Shown here: positions 19,148-30,784 of the stretch, piece by piece
Numbering within the stretch: position 1 is the stretch's first letter
Layout of the letters: each line of letters starts with the position of its first letter
From: a virus
DNA: 30,784 nt
Virus record (IMG/VR): IMGVR_UViG_3300028392_000213
Coordinates: 1-30,784 of that record
Strand: one strand, 5' to 3'
Program-made: the position numbers and the translations under genes
The notes under the pieces: generated by a model
The model's input: only the letters and a program-made list of their open reading frames with translations
What the model was told of the DNA's origin: nothing
The model's database searches: none

Positions 19148-22100
19148 ATGGCAACAACAAGTTCAAGCAATTACACCTCGCTTTACAGCACATCAACTGG
19201 TAATGCTACACCGGGAGCCACTGGATATGGCAACGCCAATGTGGTTTCATTGCTGGCAGTGGGATCAGATGCTGGCGGCAATGTGGTTGGTGCAATCAAT
19301 GCCAACGGCAACATAACCACAACAGGTTATTTCATTGGCACGTTTCTGGGCAACATCACAGGCAACTTGGTTGTGCCAGGTGCCAACACTGACATTCTCT
19401 ACAACAACAACGGCAATGCCGGTGCTACCAACAATTTTACATTCAATCAAGCCACCAATCAGATGGGCATCACTGGCACAGCCAGCGTGAGTGGCAACAT
19501 CACAGGTGGCAATCTACGCACAGGTGGACAAGTCAGTGCTGGCGGCAACATTTACACAGCAGGTGTTATCTCTTCAGCAGGCACTGTGACCGGCAGTTAC
19601 TTTGTGGGCAATGGTAGTTTGCTCACAGGCATAGCCGCTAATTATTCAAATGCCAACGCAACCAGTTTGATGGCCAATTTTGGTTCCAACACCATTGTGA
19701 CCACAGGCAACATCACAGGTGGATATTTCATTGGTAATGGATCACAACTGACAGGCATAGCCGCCAGTTATGGCAATGCCAATGTGTCAAACTTCTTGGC
19801 TAACGGATTTGGTTCAAACACCATTTCAACCACAGGCAATATCTCAGGTGGCTACATTTTAGGCAATGGTTCGCAGTTGACAGGACTGCCAGCCAGTTAC
19901 TCCAATGCCAACGTTGTGAGCCTGATGGCTGCATTTGGTAGCAACACCATATCAACCACAGGCAATGTGACTTCGGGCAATTTCCTAACTTCTGGACAGG
20001 TCAGTGCCACAGGCAATGTCACAGCACCTTATTTCTTTGGTAATGGCTCACAACTGACTGGTTTACCAGCCACATATGGTAATGCCAATGTGGCCAACTT
20101 CTTGCCCACATATGGTGGAACAGTGCTGGCCAATCTGATCAATTTTACCAACAACAGTGGCATAATTGAACAAGGTGATCAGAGAATCACCATTACAGGC
20201 AATGCCCAGGGAGTCAACACAGGTGCTTATTTCAATGATACTGGTGAAGCCGCAATATTTTCCAATAGTTATGTTGCCATAGCCACCAATACCATCGGCA
20301 ATATAAATCCAACCTGGACCTTTGACGCTGTAGGTAATCTATCAGCACCAGGCGCTATCAGTGCTGTGGGCAATATTACAGCAGCCAACTTCATCGGCAA
20401 CATTACAGGCAATGTGGGCGGTGGTAGTATCAGTGTGACAGGCAATATCACAGGTGGCAATCTATTGACCGCAGGTGCTGTGAGTGCAGGTGGCAATGTC
20501 ACTGCCGCTTATCATATTGGCAACGGATCTTTGTTGTCAAATCTAACTGGTGCCAATGTAACAGGAACTGTGGCCAATGCTGCCTATGCTGTCACAGCAG
20601 GCTCAGCAGGCACTGCCAACACAGCACAATATGTCACAGCAAACGCACAGGCCAATATCACAAGTGTTGGCATCTTGACCAGTTTGAGTAGTAGTGGTAA
20701 TATCACAGGTGCCAATATCAATGGCAACGGAAGTGGTTTGTCAAATATCACAGGTGCCAATGTCACAGGTCAAGTGGCCAATGCCTTGGTTGCTGGCACA
20801 GTTTACACTGCCGCACAACCCAACATCACTTCAGTTGGAACTCTAAGCACATTGAGTGTGAATGGAAACACACAATCTGGCAACTTGTTGACCGCAGGTG
20901 CTGTGAGTGCAGGTGGCAATGTCACTGCCGCTTATGTGATTGGCAATGGTAGTTTGTTAACCAACTTGACTGGTGCCAACGTAACAGGCACTGTGGCCAA
21001 TGCCACATACGCTCTCAATGCCAACAACTCAACCTACGCTGGCACTGTGACCACAAACGCACAACCCAACATCACAAGTGTAGGCATCTTGAGCAGCCTC
21101 AGTGTGTCAGGCAATGTGCAGGGTGGTAACCTATTGACAGGTGGTTTGATATCCAGCACAGGAACCATAACAGGCTCCAGTCATCTGGGCGGTGTGGTAT
21201 CAGTTACTGGCAATGTCACAGGTGGTAATGTCTTAACAGGTGGCCTAATCAGTGCAACTGGCACAATAACATCAGCCGCTACCATAACAGGTGGCAATAT
21301 TGCAACAGGTGGCACAGTGTCAGCCACAGGCAATATTACAGGTGCCAATCTGACCATCACAACAGATGCTGTGATCAATGGCAACTTGACAGTGAATGGC
21401 AACACCACATTCATCAACAGCAACACAGTCACTATCAATGACAAATTTATCAATGTGGCCAACAATGCTGCCACAGCAGCCGCTGCCAATGGTGGTGGAC
21501 TGGGCGTGGGTCCTGTGGGCTCTGAATATGCCACACTCACATACAATTCAACTGCCAATGCCTGGAATACCAGCATAGGCATCAGTGCCACAGGCAACAT
21601 CGCAGGCACATACGTGATTGGCAATGGTTCAGCACTCACAAGTCTAACCGGAGCCAATGTCACAGGCACAGTGGCCAATGCCACCTATGCCTTAAATGCC
21701 AATAACTCAACATTTGCTGGCACAGTCACAACCAATGCACAACCAAATATCACCAGTGTCGGCACACTGACCTCATTGTCAGTGTCAGGCAACACCACCA
21801 GTGGTAACCTGCTTACAGGTGGCTTGATAAGTTCTACAGGAACCGTTACTGGTTCAAGTCATCTGGGTGGTGTAGTATCAGTAACTGGCAATATTACAGG
21901 TGCTTACATAATTGGCAACGGATCTTTGTTGTCAAATCTAACAGGAGCCAATGTCACAGGCACGGTGGCCAATGCCACCTATGCTCTCAATGCCAATAAC
22001 TCAACCTTTGCCGGCACAGTCACAACCAATGCACAGCCCAACATCACTTCAGTTGGTATTCTAACCAGTTTAAGTGTGAGTGGCAACAGTGTGAATGGCA

Positions 22101-24775
22101 ACTTGTTGTCCACAGGCATAATTAGTGCCGCAGGCACAGTGACTGGATCCAGCCTATTGGGCAGTGTGGTTTCGGCAACAGGCAATGTGACAGGTGGCAA
22201 CCTGATCACAGGTGGCGTGATCTCGGCCACATCAACAATCACAAGTGCTGCCAATATCACAGGTGGCAACCTGTTGAGTGGTGGTGTGATTTCAGCCGCA
22301 GGCACAGTGACAGGAAGCAGTTTCTTGGGTGGTGTGGTATCAGCATCAGGCAACGTCACAGGCGGTAATTTCAACACAGCAGGTGCAGTATCAGCCGCAG
22401 GCAATGTAACAGGCACATACATCATAGGCAATGGTTCATTGCTGACCAACATCACAGGTGCCAACGTTAGTGGCACCGTGGCCAACGCTACCTATGCCCT
22501 CAACGCCAACAACTCCACATTCTCAGGCACTGTGACCACAAATGCACAGCCCAATATCACCTCAGTAGGTATATTGAGCAGTCTAAGCGTGAGTGGCAAC
22601 ACACAAGGCGGCAACCTGCTCACCGCAGGACAGGTCAGTGCCGCAGGTGCTGTTACAGGAGCAACCTTGATTGGCAGTGTGATCACTGCCACAGGCAACA
22701 TCACAGGTGGCAACATAAGAACTGCTGGCCTGGTCAGTGCCACAGGCAATGTCACAGGCTCATACATCATTGGCAACGGTTCATTGTTGACCAGTCTAAC
22801 AGGTGCCAACGTTACAGGACAAGTGGCCAATGCCTTGGTTGCTGGCACAGTTTACACTGCCGCCCAGCCCAATATTACAAGTGTAGGCACACTCACAAGT
22901 TTGACAGTGAGTGGCAATACCACAAGCGGCAATTTGATCACAACCGGTGTATTATCCACAAGTGGCAATATCACTGGTGGTAATCTTATTAGTCTTGGCA
23001 TTGTCACAGCCACTGGTAACCTAATAGGTGCTGGCGTTGTGACCACAGGCACCAGCGGTAATATCAGCAATGTAAATTATGTCACTGCCAACTATTTTGT
23101 TGGTAATGGTTATTATCTAACAGGCATATCAGGCGGCAACAGCACATATTCAAACACCAATGTGAGTGCATTTTTAGCCAGTTTTGGTAGCAACACCATT
23201 TCAACTTCGGGCAATATCACAGCCGGTTACTTTGTGGGCAATGGATCACTGTTGACCAATATTACAGGTGCCAATGTCACAGGCACTGTGGCCAATGCCA
23301 CTTATGCAACCTCAGCAGGCTCAGCCACAACTGCTGGCACAGTGACCTCAAATGCTCAAGCCAATATCACAAGTGTTGGAGTGTTGACAAGCCTAAGTGT
23401 AAGCGGAAACACACAATCAGGCAACTTGCTCACAGCAGGTGTGGTATCAGCCACAGGCAATATCTCTGGCAACTACTTTATTGGTAATGGATCGCAACTG
23501 ACAGGCATCTCAGGAGGCGGCGGTTCGCCAGGTGGTTCCAACACACAGATTCAATACAACAATGCTTCAGCATTTGCTGGCAATGCCAATTTCACATTCA
23601 ATCAAGCCACTGGCAATGTGAACCTTGGTAATCTAATCATTACCACCAGCAATGCCATCAACTTTGTCAACACAGTGGCACCATTTACAGGCATCCCAGC
23701 CAATGTCACAGCAATTTCAAACAGTCAAATTGTGATAGGCACAGGCTTCAACGGCAATACCAGTCTTACGAATATAAGTTTAAATGGTGCCAGAGGCGGC
23801 AAAGTGTTAATATACGACACTTACGCTGTGGCTGATTCAGGAGGACCCAGAATAGCAGGCCTGGCCGTGGCATCTATTCTAAGCCTTACAGGCAACATAT
23901 CAAATACCAACTCATTCCTACGCGGTGTGGTTGGTGCTGCCATCATAGGTGGAGGCAGCAGTAATTATCAAGTTCAATATCCCAGTCTCAACTCTGTGCA
24001 AGGTGGCAGTATGTCACTGACTGTGGGTCAACCCAACACAGTGGTAGCCTATGGCAACACCAATGTGTATTCTGGTGTGGGCCTGGTAGCATCGACCACA
24101 CTAAACAATGGTTCCACAGCAGGCAACCTGGTGACCCTTTTTAGTTCTACCAGTGTAACTGGTGTTGCCAACAATGTGGCAGGCCTGGTGTTGCAACTGC
24201 AAGGCAATCCAGGCGGTTCAAGCAATCCCATACCTACCAATGTGTATGGCATTTACATGAACAGTGCCACCAGTCAAGGCATATTTGGTCAGACTGCGGG
24301 CACAGGCACCAATACAGAACAGATGCGATCGGCCACCAACTATTATTTCTTGAGAAATGATGATGATCTTGCTCAGGTAAAACTGGGCAGTTTGAGACTG
24401 TTCAATGAATTCCAATATGATGGTGCCAATACTTCAGGCACTCTTGCAGTGGACAAAAATAATGGTCAGGTGCAAACGATATATTTGTCTGGTGCTATTA
24501 CATCAGTCACATTCTCCAATTTTGTGACTTCAGCCAGTCAGACATATACTCCTGCTACCAAGTATCAAACTGACACAGTGACCTTGATCCTGCGGCAGGG
24601 TTCAACACCATACGCTGTGACCATGCCCACAGGCTCCGCCTACAAGTATGCGGCAGGTTCTACCACCGTGGGTGCCACTGCCAACGCTGTGACCATGATA
24701 TCAATCACAGCCACTTATGATACAGTATCAGCAGCCAATCAATATCTCATTACCATATCACCGGAGTTCACATAA
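19148..24775 (+). CDS. Giant repetitive tail fibre protein
   Basis: A 1875-residue protein, the largest in the window. Residues 1-60 are Ser/Thr/Gly-rich. Then come repeated units, the full form of about 80 residues being a VSATGNVTGGN-type part, IGNGSLLTNLTGANVTGTVA, NATYALNANNST, and NAQPNITSVG-LSSLSVSGN. The signature AQ[PA]NITSVG occurs 8 times. Repeats are flanked on both sides by the same boundary element (NFTFNQAT at the start and again near residue 1480). The C-terminal 400 residues are non-repetitive beta sheet ending YLITISPEFT. No peptidase S74 domain is visible. The repeats are probably a long beta-helical shaft and the C-terminus the host-binding tip. The start has AAGGA upstream. 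Confidence 0.85.
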   Translation: MATTSSSNYTSLYSTSTGNATPGATGYGNANVVSLLAVGSDAGGNVVGAINANGNITTTGYFIGTFLGNITGNLVVPGANTDILYNNNGNAGATNNFTFNQATNQMGITGTASVSGNITGGNLRTGGQVSAGGNIYTAGVISSAGTVTGSYFVGNGSLLTGIAANYSNANATSLMANFGSNTIVTTGNITGGYFIGNGSQLTGIAASYGNANVSNFLANGFGSNTISTTGNISGGYILGNGSQLTGLPASYSNANVVSLMAAFGSNTISTTGNVTSGNFLTSGQVSATGNVTAPYFFGNGSQLTGLPATYGNANVANFLPTYGGTVLANLINFTNNSGIIEQGDQRITITGNAQGVNTGAYFNDTGEAAIFSNSYVAIATNTIGNINPTWTFDAVGNLSAPGAISAVGNITAANFIGNITGNVGGGSISVTGNITGGNLLTAGAVSAGGNVTAAYHIGNGSLLSNLTGANVTGTVANAAYAVTAGSAGTANTAQYVTANAQANITSVGILTSLSSSGNITGANINGNGSGLSNITGANVTGQVANALVAGTVYTAAQPNITSVGTLSTLSVNGNTQSGNLLTAGAVSAGGNVTAAYVIGNGSLLTNLTGANVTGTVANATYALNANNSTYAGTVTTNAQPNITSVGILSSLSVSGNVQGGNLLTGGLISSTGTITGSSHLGGVVSVTGNVTGGNVLTGGLISATGTITSAATITGGNIATGGTVSATGNITGANLTITTDAVINGNLTVNGNTTFINSNTVTINDKFINVANNAATAAAANGGGLGVGPVGSEYATLTYNSTANAWNTSIGISATGNIAGTYVIGNGSALTSLTGANVTGTVANATYALNANNSTFAGTVTTNAQPNITSVGTLTSLSVSGNTTSGNLLTGGLISSTGTVTGSSHLGGVVSVTGNITGAYIIGNGSLLSNLTGANVTGTVANATYALNANNSTFAGTVTTNAQPNITSVGILTSLSVSGNSVNGNLLSTGIISAAGTVTGSSLLGSVVSATGNVTGGNLITGGVISATSTITSAANITGGNLLSGGVISAAGTVTGSSFLGGVVSASGNVTGGNFNTAGAVSAAGNVTGTYIIGNGSLLTNITGANVSGTVANATYALNANNSTFSGTVTTNAQPNITSVGILSSLSVSGNTQGGNLLTAGQVSAAGAVTGATLIGSVITATGNITGGNIRTAGLVSATGNVTGSYIIGNGSLLTSLTGANVTGQVANALVAGTVYTAAQPNITSVGTLTSLTVSGNTTSGNLITTGVLSTSGNITGGNLISLGIVTATGNLIGAGVVTTGTSGNISNVNYVTANYFVGNGYYLTGISGGNSTYSNTNVSAFLASFGSNTISTSGNITAGYFVGNGSLLTNITGANVTGTVANATYATSAGSATTAGTVTSNAQANITSVGVLTSLSVSGNTQSGNLLTAGVVSATGNISGNYFIGNGSQLTGISGGGGSPGGSNTQIQYNNASAFAGNANFTFNQATGNVNLGNLIITTSNAINFVNTVAPFTGIPANVTAISNSQIVIGTGFNGNTSLTNISLNGARGGKVLIYDTYAVADSGGPRIAGLAVASILSLTGNISNTNSFLRGVVGAAIIGGGSSNYQVQYPSLNSVQGGSMSLTVGQPNTVVAYGNTNVYSGVGLVASTTLNNGSTAGNLVTLFSSTSVTGVANNVAGLVLQLQGNPGGSSNPIPTNVYGIYMNSATSQGIFGQTAGTGTNTEQMRSATNYYFLRNDDDLAQVKLGSLRLFNEFQYDGANTSGTLAVDKNNGQVQTIYLSGAITSVTFSNFVTSASQTYTPATKYQTDTVTLILRQGSTPYAVTMPTGSAYKYAAGSTTVGATANAVTMISITATYDTVSAANQYLITISPEFT
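19480..23520 (+). repeat. DNA repeats within the fibre gene
   Basis: Units of about 240 bases share long identical stretches; for example about 48 identical bases starting at TTGACCGCAGG near 20466 recur near 20889, and about 44 identical bases recur near 20768 and 22812 (coding VANALVAGTVYTA). Such identity would allow recombination to change the number of units. Confidence 0.9.
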
Positions 24776-27156: not shown

Positions 27157-29079
27157 GTGGCTCAAATAAACTCAAGTTATCAAGAAGCAAGAATACCATT
27201 TGCCAAAATGACCTACACACCCGACGTGCCATCAACGGCTCTGGGTCCCAACGAATACAACGCAGGCATCAACGTGGAAGCAGATGTGCGTGGCATACGC
27301 TCAGTGGCCGGTGATCAAGAATTTTTATCAACCATCACTGGCACACCCACCTATGTGAGTTCGGGCTTTAGACGCAATGGCACATTCTGGTTCATAGTGG
27401 CCACCACAGAAGGTCATTGGTATGCCAGATCAGACACAGTGGCCTGGTATGAAATTACACCTGTGGGCGGAGTAGGCGTTTATGCACAAAATACCAACAT
27501 CACAGAAGGTTGGTCAGGCACAGTGCCTTTCTTCAATGACGCACAAAATCCTCCCATGTTCTTGCCCGATGAAGCAGGTGCAATCTTGGTCAAATACAGC
27601 AACACCCTGCCTTTAAGTATCAGCACCATTGTGTATGTGAGTGCCACTGTGCAACAGATTCAGTTGAGCACCACACAAGCATCAGCACCTTATGTGGCCG
27701 GTGAAAAGATTATTCTTTCTGGATGTGGCAACTATTATAATGGCACATTCACAGTGGTATCCAGCACCACCTCCACCATCAACTACACAGCCTCACCTGC
27801 TGGTGGCCTGCTGAAAAATGGTGCAACTGTGACGCCATTGTATGCTTGGAACTACAACTCAAATTGGAAAAGTTATTATGCCAACTTCTTGCGTATCTAT
27901 AACACACCCAACGTGGGTTCAATCCTGGTTGCTGGCAATTTAACAGCCACACAACTTGACGACACCATAGTAAATTATCCTGTCACAGTGCAATGGAGCC
28001 AGGCATTTGGTCTGAATCAAGCACCACAAAGTTGGACACCCACTGTGACCAACGTGGCCAACCAATTGGAGGTGCCGCTTCGTGGTTCATGTCTGGATGC
28101 TTTCCCATCCAATGGTCAATTCTTCCTGTGCAGTTACTGGGACACAGTTGTGTTTTCACCCTTGAACTATTCTACAACATCAGCACCTATCCTGGGTGTT
28201 AGACTGTATAATCAAGGTCGCGGCCTGCTGAGTAGCAACACCTGGGCCAACACAGACAAACTGGTGTATGGAATTGATGCCAGAGATGTCTGGGTGTTTG
28301 ATGGCAATGACTTTACAGGTATTGGCAATCAGCGTGTGAAGAACTGGTTCTTTGATCAGTTGAATCCTCAATATTATGATCGTGTGTTTATGGAAACCAA
28401 CACACAAAAAAATCAAATTGAAATCTACTATCCAGATAGTTCAGCCGTGGGTGGTGTGCCCAACAAGATGTTGGCCTATCGCTATGATCTTGACTGCTGG
28501 AACGCACCAAGAGATGTGACTTCGGCCACAATGGGTTGTGAATCACCCATCTATACCTTGACAGGCAATACTTGGACACCCAATTATGGCAGCCGAACCA
28601 TTGTGTATGCACGTGGCGAAACCAACCAAAAACTGGTGCAAAAAGACATTGGTTATACATTTGTCGCCAGCAATGCCAATCCCACAGGTGCCATTGCGTC
28701 AACATTCCGCAGAGACAATATCAAACTGATCAAAGACTATTCAGGCAAACTCATGGTGCATCGCATCTTGCCCGAGGTTGTGAACATTGGTGCCACACCA
28801 TTCACAGGCACAGATAACATACCAATTATACCTTCACCAGGCAATCTAACTGTCACAATAGAAGGATCAAACTCAGTGGGGTCAACACCCACTACCAAGA
28901 CTCCTGTGACCATACCCGTTGATGCCAATGGGGCCAGCAATAGTCAAAATCCCTGGGCACAGATCAATCAAAATGCGTTCCGTGTGAACACAATCGAACT
29001 GTCAAATTCATCAACCACAGATGTGTGGATATGTTCAGCCACTACCTGGCAAATCACACAAGTTGAGGATGATCGCTAA
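27157..29079 (+). CDS. Tail tube / nozzle-type structural protein
   Basis: A 640-residue protein starting at GTG with AAGGA about 12 bases upstream. The opening RIPFAKMTYTPDVPSTALGP followed by NAGINVEADVRGIRSVAGDQ is typical of podovirus tail-tubular or DNA-stabilisation proteins that describe the tail nozzle. A beta insertion (about residues 155-228) with VAGEKIILSGCGNYYNGTFT interrupts the propeller-like core, and the rest continues with strands such as DKLVYGIDARDVWVFDGNDF. It overlaps the next gene by TAATG. It would close the tail channel after packaging. Confidence 0.75.
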   Translation: MAQINSSYQEARIPFAKMTYTPDVPSTALGPNEYNAGINVEADVRGIRSVAGDQEFLSTITGTPTYVSSGFRRNGTFWFIVATTEGHWYARSDTVAWYEITPVGGVGVYAQNTNITEGWSGTVPFFNDAQNPPMFLPDEAGAILVKYSNTLPLSISTIVYVSATVQQIQLSTTQASAPYVAGEKIILSGCGNYYNGTFTVVSSTTSTINYTASPAGGLLKNGATVTPLYAWNYNSNWKSYYANFLRIYNTPNVGSILVAGNLTATQLDDTIVNYPVTVQWSQAFGLNQAPQSWTPTVTNVANQLEVPLRGSCLDAFPSNGQFFLCSYWDTVVFSPLNYSTTSAPILGVRLYNQGRGLLSSNTWANTDKLVYGIDARDVWVFDGNDFTGIGNQRVKNWFFDQLNPQYYDRVFMETNTQKNQIEIYYPDSSAVGGVPNKMLAYRYDLDCWNAPRDVTSATMGCESPIYTLTGNTWTPNYGSRTIVYARGETNQKLVQKDIGYTFVASNANPTGAIASTFRRDNIKLIKDYSGKLMVHRILPEVVNIGATPFTGTDNIPIIPSPGNLTVTIEGSNSVGSTPTTKTPVTIPVDANGASNSQNPWAQINQNAFRVNTIELSNSSTTDVWICSATTWQITQVEDDR

Positions 29080-30482
29080 TGCAATTTCCAGTTCAAACAG
29101 GCAATGATGCGGCCGTAGCAGAAGCCCTAAACTATTTGTTGTCAGGTCCTGCAGGCCTGGGTCAGGACTTCAATGGCTATGAACAATGGACTCCTGGTTA
29201 TCTAACAGGCAACTTTAGAATACCTTACACACAAATCAGTATCAATAGTGCTGCCACAGGTGTGAGTGGCGACAACTATGTGAGTGTGAATCCCACTGCG
29301 GCTGGTATCCTTGTGGGCATGACAGTGAGTGGTTATGGCATAACTCCAGGCACTACTGTGACCAGTATTGGTGCTCAAACTTCAGGTGGTGTGCGTGTGA
29401 ATCTAAGTGCAGTGATCACAGCCGACATTGACAATGATCTAACATTCACACCAAATCCTGTTCCAAAATTGTATGTGGCACCTATTGCCTTGGGCACCAG
29501 CACACTGTTGGATCCATACACCTGGAAGTTTGAATTTGCCACACCCCAGGCTGCACCACCATTTGTGCCTGGCAACAACATCACAGTTAATGATGTTGTA
29601 GATGGACAACAAGGGGCCAAAGAATTCACATTGTCTGGCACTAAAGCAATATCGGCATCTATCACAACCTATAGTGGAATAATTCCAACAACATTAACTG
29701 GATCTGGAACCGGCCTTGAATTAGATATAACCTTGGCAGTATCTGGTGCTGTTGCTTATTCCTCAGCAAATACCACTATTGACATTGTTGAATCTGGCAT
29801 GGGTTATCAGATTGGAGATACAGTTAAAGTATTAGGCACTGATTTGGGAGGATTTTCGCCTGCTAATGACCTAACATTGACAGTTTTGCATACCAGCAGT
29901 TCATATGATGGTTCATATGATCCTATTGGTGTGGCCACATGCACCACAACCTATGTTATTGCCAGAACCGCAGATCCTTACACGGTGCCTGGACCCGGCT
30001 CAGGTGGAACTGTCAAGTTATTTAACACCAGTGCTGTGCCCAAAGTCTATGCACTCAGCACTGATTGCAATGCCAAGATTGTTGTAAATGGCGGCAATGA
30101 CCGTGTGTTCATATCTGCTCAACTCAACAACCGGATCAGTTATTTGGCCACAACCTCAAGTGATTTAAGTTATGCTGTGGCCATCAATAGATACATTGGC
30201 AGTCCCAACACTGATCCTGCCAATCCGGGTTATTTCTTTGAATTCGACAAATTGATTGCCAAACGAGTCTACACAGGCACAGGATTTACTGGACTCACAG
30301 GCACAGGAACCTTGCCCAACATAGAAACCATATTCACAAACTTTCCAGATCAAAATATCACACCAGCCTACTATTGGTATATCATGGACGTGAGTTTTCA
30401 AGTGACCAATGGCGGAGATCTACAGGTCACACAAAGTGAACTGGGTCTGAGAAGCATGAGCACTCAGACTGTGAAGCAATAA
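29079..30482 (+). CDS. Virion protein with two inserted beta modules
   Basis: A 467-residue protein starting in TAATG. The N- and C-terminal parts (about residues 1-50 and 280-467) form a single structural framework ending MDVSFQVTNGGDLQVTQSEL. Two modules lie inside: residues about 55-126 (VGMTVSGYGITPGTTVTSIG) resemble the insertion in the connector at 18184, and residues about 190-272 (ESGMGYQIGDTVKVLGTDLG with ANDLTLTV) are a module seen in many phage structural proteins (recall). The DNA of the second (29646-29894) is AT-richer than its surroundings, hinting at recent acquisition. It is probably a tail or collar protein. Confidence 0.75.
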   Translation: MQFPVQTGNDAAVAEALNYLLSGPAGLGQDFNGYEQWTPGYLTGNFRIPYTQISINSAATGVSGDNYVSVNPTAAGILVGMTVSGYGITPGTTVTSIGAQTSGGVRVNLSAVITADIDNDLTFTPNPVPKLYVAPIALGTSTLLDPYTWKFEFATPQAAPPFVPGNNITVNDVVDGQQGAKEFTLSGTKAISASITTYSGIIPTTLTGSGTGLELDITLAVSGAVAYSSANTTIDIVESGMGYQIGDTVKVLGTDLGGFSPANDLTLTVLHTSSSYDGSYDPIGVATCTTTYVIARTADPYTVPGPGSGGTVKLFNTSAVPKVYALSTDCNAKIVVNGGNDRVFISAQLNNRISYLATTSSDLSYAVAINRYIGSPNTDPANPGYFFEFDKLIAKRVYTGTGFTGLTGTGTLPNIETIFTNFPDQNITPAYYWYIMDVSFQVTNGGDLQVTQSELGLRSMSTQTVKQ

Positions 30483-30496
30483 GCCAGTTAAAATGC

Positions 30497-30517
30497 AATA
30501 CTAATAAGTATAGTATT
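30497..30517 (+). promoter_or_regulatory. AT-rich hairpin in the ACP gene leader
   Basis: AATACTA (30497-30503) pairs with TAGTATT (30511-30517) around ATAAGTA. CTAATAAG and TATAGTATTATAG in it resemble promoter elements, but no clear consensus. The gap 30483-30532 holds no gene. Confidence 0.4.
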
Positions 30518-30532
30518 ATAGATTGGAATAGT

Positions 30533-30784
30533 ATGGACTTTTTAGAATTGTTTAATGCAGTGGCTCGTGTGGCAAGACCTGTTCATGTCACACACAATCC
30601 TGTGCTTGATACCACAGAGAAGTTGTTGGACACAGGCCTGGATAGCCTGGATATATTGATGATATGCATATACATGTGCGAACTGTATGGCATCGACGAA
30701 GATGCAGGCAAAAACATGCCTGCCGCAACAGTAGAGGAAATTAGAGAATTTGTTATGGCCAATCACACACAACAACCTGAAAGT
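30533..30784 (+). CDS. acpP-like: Acyl-carrier-protein-like protein (3' end cut by window)
   Basis: An ATG at 30533 opens a frame of 84 codons to the window edge. The central GLDSLDILMICIYMCELYGI matches the ACP signature: the Asp-Ser-Leu motif with Ser38 as the phosphopantetheine site (Ser36 in E. coli AcpP), followed by helix II. MPAATVEEIREFVMAN fits the final helix, and the acidic GIDEDAG fits loop and helix III. Length and order match a stand-alone ACP of about 80-90 residues. ACPs carry acyl chains on 4'-phosphopantetheine for fatty acid and related synthesis. The start has no strong ribosome binding site (GGA five bases upstream). A carrier without its enzymes in view could act with host enzymes or with genes to the right. 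Confidence 0.75.
   Translation, partial: MDFLELFNAVARVARPVHVTHNPVLDTTEKLLDTGLDSLDILMICIYMCELYGIDEDAGKNMPAATVEEIREFVMANHTQQPES

Follow-up and report, generated by a model that had tools for sequence, protein, structure and literature searches.

The window analysed here is the whole of an IMG/VR virus record of 30784 bases, and its right-hand end carries a run of plus-strand genes that begins with components of the phage tail. A gene for a tail-hub protein of 640 aa (27157..29079) is followed by a 467-aa tail gene, T467 (29079..30482), and, after a further 50 bases, by a reading frame with an ATG start (30533..30784, plus strand) that is still open at the contig end. This last frame encodes the N-terminal 84 of about 93-95 residues of an acyl carrier protein (ACP), whose stop codon is expected 10-11 codons past the window end by comparison with related loci (L073-L077). 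Within it, the segment Asp37-Ser38-Leu39-Asp40 (30641..30652, plus strand; Ser38 codon at 30644-30646) is, from its invariance and from a structural model, the predicted phosphopantetheine attachment site at the start of helix II. Just 5' of the ACP start lies an imperfect inverted repeat, AATACTA...TAGTATT (30498-30518), a possible promoter or terminator element. Further to the left in the window, a protein of 1875 aa (19148-24775) contains many similar Gly/Asn/Thr-rich repeats of the ITGGNLLTGGVISATGTVTGS type and is probably a beta-helical tail fibre.

Searched as a single sequence, the window ACP matched the TIGR00517 acyl_carrier model weakly (E=0.007) and a PHROGs family of unknown function, phrog_28189 (E=3e-4). 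Single-sequence matches to MOZART1 were weak, local and under the Pfam cut-off, carried no family-level signal and were set aside. A family HMM was built from an alignment of 46 sequences (the window ACP and 45 relatives) and found 112 PDB sequences at E<=1; all 60 of those listed were carrier proteins, with a best value of 1.3e-5. The preliminary description of this DNA had proposed a PP-binding (PF00550) search as a check on the ACP assignment; no such match was found in Pfam for the window sequence alone, whereas 14 of the 46 family members reached PP-binding singly at E<=0.05, the best at 3e-4. An AF2 model of the window ACP (pLDDT 85) is a four-helix ACP-like bundle, with helices at residues 3-14, 38-52, 56-60 and 67-77 and with Ser38 opening helix II. 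The structural matches listed for this model were carrier proteins, aligned over 69-81 residues (best Z 8.2).

A first scan of viral contigs identified 16 homologous IMG/VR loci encoding proteins of 93-95 aa, and a profile search returned 216 candidate stretches. Residues D37, S38 and D40 are invariant across the 46 aligned ACPs, and the motif DS[LMIV][DE] is kept in 145/145 distinct homologues, which have a median net charge of -10. The N-terminal segment MDFLELFN is unusually conserved. Median dN/dS for the ACP is 0.079 over 678 pairs, and the genes of the cassette described below are under strong purifying selection. Together, the family profile, the invariant motif, the ACP fold in the model and the low dN/dS confirm that the frame at 30533-30784 is the start of a genuine ACP. 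The original observation, an ACP with its DSL motif at Ser38 in helix II and placed after tail genes, is thus upheld by the family HMM, the invariance and the model, taken together. A chance DSL motif was ruled out by the profile matches, the invariance and the dN/dS. Bacterial contamination of the contig was likewise rejected, since phage tail genes precede the reading frame and members of the family were found in viral contigs and in a phage record.

We then examined the genes around the ACP in its relatives. The usual order is the ACP, a gene of about 370 aa for a ketosynthase (KS), a gene of about 148 aa for a GNAT-fold protein (GNAT), and a large gene whose product starts MSAVV or MGAVA. 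Linkage was counted over 301 loci with duplicates removed, most of them fetched with cassette proteins as baits, so that the counts describe linkage and not frequency in phages. The KS lies directly 3' of the ACP in 114 of 118 distinct ACP sequences, and a further 2 run into the contig end. The full series ACP-KS-GNAT was found at 99 distinct loci. ACP-KS without a visible GNAT was found at 15 distinct loci, 14 of which are cut by the contig end, and ACP-GNAT without a KS at 2 (the L009 type, which includes L009-L011, and L163); at 2 further distinct loci the ACP is cut, and at 1 KS-GNAT is cut. The GNAT stands alone, with no adjacent ACP or KS, at about 7 loci (e.g., L108, L153 and L157). At all 91 loci that include the KS start, the ACP is directly upstream and its stop overlaps that start by a few bases, which suggests that the two genes may be translationally coupled.

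The ACPs closest to that of the window (L073-L077, 51-57%) have flanks that, where of sufficient length, show ACP-KS-GNAT. The window ACP had one significant match to a named record in the phage collection, MW202545. The sole match in the bacterial and archaeal genome collection came from a Balneolaceae MAG (L096, JAGYJQ010000016.1), where a complete ACP-KS-GNAT set lies on a phage-like contig, possibly as a host clue or as a binning error. In one contig of 65.7 kb (L010) the ACP and GNAT are present and the KS is absent from the whole contig, a case that is useful for distinguishing what the KS contributes from what the ACP does. The one true instance of ACP-KS without a GNAT is a contig of 13.9 kb (L007), whose ACP and KS genes are not in the tail operon but close to a DNA methyltransferase-like gene, with no GNAT beside them.

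Searches of 25 long cassette-bearing contigs, records that may be fragments, found no AcpS or other phosphopantetheinyl transferase (PPTase; PF01648) and no FabG-type reductase (PF13561), with controls matching in each case; priming and reduction are therefore probably carried out by the host. The preliminary description had suggested that partner enzymes might lie to the right of the ACP and form a small acyl-transfer system, and had named a ketosynthase and a phosphopantetheinyl transferase among the genes to look for in the following DNA. In relatives, the ketosynthase is indeed the next gene and is followed by the GNAT-fold protein, whereas no such transferase matched in the long contigs just described. 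As the predicted partners do lie to the right of the ACP in relatives, interpreting the genes as a small acyl-transfer system goes in the right direction, although the window's own partner genes would lie off the contig.

The second gene is annotated as a 3-oxoacyl-ACP synthase in MW202545. Both the N and C domains of ketoacyl-synt in Pfam were above cut-off in each of 6 proteins tested (6/6), the nearest models were those of FabF (to 6e-33), and a comparison with the PDB returned FabF enzymes (E=3e-28). As in FabF-type beta-ketoacyl-ACP synthases, condensing-enzyme domains are combined with a Cys-His-Lys-His active site, and the catalytic residues C128, H270, K298 and H303 are invariant in 29/29 aligned sequences. 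Among 136 distinct KS proteins longer than 330 aa, the K...GHT motif and the active-site Cys are present in all 136 (for the Cys, exceptions to the regular expression were inspected), and the first catalytic His was confirmed by regular expression and inspection in all but L154. Unlike FabF, the phage KS is shorter at its N-terminus, lacking parts of the FabF N-terminal region (about 370 aa versus about 412), and in 136/136 proteins GMGN replaces the FabF gate loop GFGG; E. coli FabF served as the landmark for this comparison, and the catalytic motifs were checked independently against FabF in the PDB. Identity to cellular-type KS in phage-collection records is roughly 25-30%, PHROGs lists the KS family as function unknown, and at least 207 IMG/VR stretches encode the protein. 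As judged from its sequence, the gene downstream of the ACP in relatives is a predicted FabF-like ketosynthase that keeps its catalytic residues.

The third gene, of about 148 aa, had no match in Pfam, the HlyC family included. Its AF2 model (pLDDT 89) has secondary-structure elements in the order H H E E E H E H E E, which is the order of a GNAT minus its first strand. The top PDB matches from Foldseek were GNATs (E 7e-5), and a VIA structural search placed RimI first (Z 11.7, rmsd 2.7, 124 residues aligned), with many CoA-type GNATs matching at Z 10-11.7 and no HlyC-type chain among the 50 matches listed. The CoA pyrophosphate loop, [QR]xxGx[GA], is absent at the beta4-alpha3 position in 135/135 homologues, among which the pattern matches 6 times elsewhere in the chain. 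The best-conserved residues are Gly51-Asn52, the Asn and Asp of an NADT segment, Glu39 and Ser5. On the evidence of its model and its sequence, the third gene encodes a GNAT-fold protein without the CoA-binding P-loop.

This combination resembles that of the toxin-activating acyltransferases, which have a GNAT-like fold, use acyl-ACP as donor and have no CoA-binding elements (PMC8339906, PMC8510554). In ApxIC, which is GNAT-like, the CoA loop is missing and the family takes its acyl group from ACP, and the GNAT resemblance of the HlyC/RtxC family is reported to be undetectable by sequence (PMC8339906). The phage GNAT is like RtxC/HlyC, ApxIC and CdiC (class IV CDI) in having the fold without the usual CoA-binding elements; in those systems the donor is acyl-ACP, the gene lies beside that of the target, and the lipid helps membrane engagement (PMC8339906, PMC8510554). 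Unlike the phage cassette, however, toxin-activating acyltransferases borrow the host ACP and have no KS. A further parallel is offered by N-acyl amino acid synthases of the FeeM type, which use long-chain acyl-ACP to N-acylate an amine (PMC8762209); unlike these, the phage GNAT is only about 148 aa long, has no sequence relation to them in Pfam and lies beside a virion gene.

The gene after the GNAT nearly always encodes, across several tail lineages, a large protein, putatively an ejection protein, with a valine-rich amphipathic stretch at its N-terminus. Its first two residues are Met-Ser or Met-Gly in 115 of 127 cases, versus 20% of other long ORFs. Ser or Gly at position 2 is also found in some relatives that lack the GNAT (L100, L104, L109, L120, L121, L124 and L138), and a Met-Ser or Met-Gly start was counted in 10 of 35 distinct tail-hub relatives, the majority of which lack the cassette GNAT. 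We therefore rejected the N-terminal Ser/Gly as proof of an acylation target: its occurrence in GNAT-less relatives indicates that the signal may come with the amphipathic domain, and it is confounded by descent and by that domain itself. By simple ORF calling, the downstream proteins of L002 and L024 have N-terminal extensions. A different start, MCGGF, is seen in the virion protein of L133, L136 and L140 and may mark a further N-terminus that is modified; the gene before it in L136 and L140 is a canonical GNAT-like one.

The tail hub of the window is distantly related to a gene of about 620 aa near the ACP in other cassette phages (E=1e-6 to L015, 26% identity) and has a homologue in MW202484. 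By tail hub, the window has 51 relatives (56-77% identity), in nearly all of which T467 follows the hub and a cargo slot begins after T467, corresponding to the right of position 30482 in the window. The order hub, T467, slot, IVP1, IVP2 and W2024 is found in L130, L145 and L146 and partly in others. In the window, the last three of these genes instead occupy the left end, all on the plus strand: the putative internal-virion genes IVP1 (1-975) and IVP2 (972-2027) and a 159-aa gene, W2024 (2024-2503). As the first 2.5 kb of the window thus correspond to the genes right of the slot in relatives, the contig looks circularly permuted, with a stretch missing between its ends, into which a KS and a GNAT would fit. 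An exact-match search with the window's last 27 bases found no contig. The left-end gene at 972-2027 had no match in 20 cassette-phage records, which indicates that the window represents a distant lineage.

None of the 51 tail-hub relatives has an ACP after T467, the slot being empty or occupied by other cargo. It holds the cassette GNAT alone in L108 (4e-50) and a divergent form of it in L135 (5e-5). Across L097-L147 the cargo is variable, and absent in some; genes named from sequence reading include a canonical GNAT-like gene (L115, L136 and L140), a 2OG-Fe(II) oxygenase-like gene (L141-L144) and a phosphoribosyltransferase-like gene (L118, L119, L137, L145 and L146). Given that 114 of 116 ACP cases with a readable next gene have a KS, a KS is likely in the window's own phage, which by inference would carry the remaining cassette genes past the point where the contig stops.

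Several of the parts are already known from viruses: phage ACPs (PMC11705849, PMC5463345), prophage fabG-acpP-fabF sets (PMC8224337) and a viral fabF (PMC7029224). The phage ACP genes on record are Alteromonas phage R22Y gp30, Erythrobacter phage R6L ORF32 and roseobacter prophage acpP. Known phage ACPs have been read as metabolic genes, and the passages on them describe no acyltransferase cassette (PMC11705849, PMC5463345). In three roseobacter prophages, fabG-acpP-fabF follows the order of the cellular fab cluster (PMC8224337), whereas the order here is ACP-KS-GNAT, without FabG. A literature search covering mainly open-access journal articles returned no account of an ACP-KS-GNAT cassette in a virion gene region. 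Among named phage records, the whole cassette was found only in Caudoviricetes sp. ctpbd312 (MW202545, Manatee Spring), with genes UOF78446 (the ACP, annotated hypothetical), UOF78413 (the annotated 3-oxoacyl-ACP synthase) and UOF78445; it differs from the window in tail lineage, and its ACP is 40.5% identical.

The position of the cassette among tail and injection genes raises the possibility that a fatty chain is added to one of the phage's own proteins. The explanation that we tentatively favour, at somewhat less than an even chance, is that the ACP belongs to a phage-borne acyl-transfer cassette between tail and ejection-protein genes, in which the GNAT would acylate an amine, with the neighbouring virion protein as the most plausible substrate. 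Host AcpS would place phosphopantetheine on Ser38, host fatty-acid synthesis together with the phage KS would build or elongate an acyl chain on the phage ACP, and the GNAT would take this chain from acyl-ACP, not acyl-CoA, to form an amide. The most likely acceptor would be the virion protein encoded directly downstream, with its valine-rich amphipathic N-terminus, and, when DNA is ejected, the lipid would aid entry of that protein into the membrane, or its anchoring there, much as RTX toxins and CdiA are activated by acylation. Against this explanation we count the ACP-KS pair of L007, outside the tail operon and without a GNAT, and the N-terminal extensions of the downstream proteins in L002 and L024; in addition, the loci with a GNAT and no adjacent ACP or KS indicate that the GNAT may not need them. 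A more specific form of the explanation, which we consider doubtful, is a dedicated virion-lipidation system with its own ACP, condensing enzyme and CoA-independent GNAT, placing a specific acyl group on the ejection protein, perhaps at its N-terminal Ser/Gly, to breach the cell membrane.

An ACP, a KS and a GNAT would also suffice to produce a small N-acylated molecule or amino lipid (an N-acyl amino acid, an acyl-homoserine-lactone-like signal or an ornithine-lipid-like compound), with the GNAT joining the ACP-borne acyl group to a free amine and the product perturbing the membrane, signalling or aiding lysis. GNAT-like folds also occur in FeeM and LuxI enzymes. Acyl-ACP is the donor for known N-acyl amino acid synthases (PMC8762209). 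We nevertheless regard a small-molecule product as unlikely: the cassette is tied to virion genes, with the large amphipathic protein nearly always after the GNAT in several tail lineages, and no export or other biosynthesis gene was recognised within it. A comparably low probability is given to the view that the ACP and KS are auxiliary metabolic genes that push host fatty-acid elongation, and so membrane composition or fluidity, while the GNAT is a virion gene with no connection to them. Such an interpretation has been given to phage ACPs and to prophage fabG-acpP-fabF sets (PMC11705849, PMC8224337), fabF is among the lipid genes of a pelagimyophage (PMC7029224), and ACP-KS without GNAT in L007 and GNAT alone in some phages fit such a separation. 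This view is at odds with the back-to-back arrangement of KS and GNAT in nearly all cassettes, with the existence of ACP-GNAT pairs that lack a KS (L009-L011 and L163), with the missing parts of the FabF N-terminus in the KS, and with the lack of a FabG-type reductase or PPTase match in the 25 long contigs.

A further view gives the ACP the main job of a protein partner or scaffold, or a place inside the virion, and treats the KS and the GNAT-fold protein as degenerate or as structural components. The retention of the catalytic residues in KS proteins throughout the family and the strong purifying selection on the cassette genes make this quite improbable. It would suit the lack of a P-loop in the GNAT-fold protein, the position of that protein among structural genes, and the unusually conserved MDFLELFN segment of the ACP. 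ACP binds MukB or IscS, which provides a precedent. On balance, the fixed place of the cassette among virion genes in several tail lineages leads us to prefer protein acylation, by a modest margin, over small-molecule or metabolic roles.

An ACP in a phage genome is usually recorded as an auxiliary metabolic gene, whereas the one described here lies in a compact, widespread cassette among virion genes. Should a virion protein prove to be acylated by the cassette, phages would have an equivalent of the lipidation of RTX toxins and CdiA, with a bearing on the means by which the ejection proteins of short-tailed phages cross membranes.
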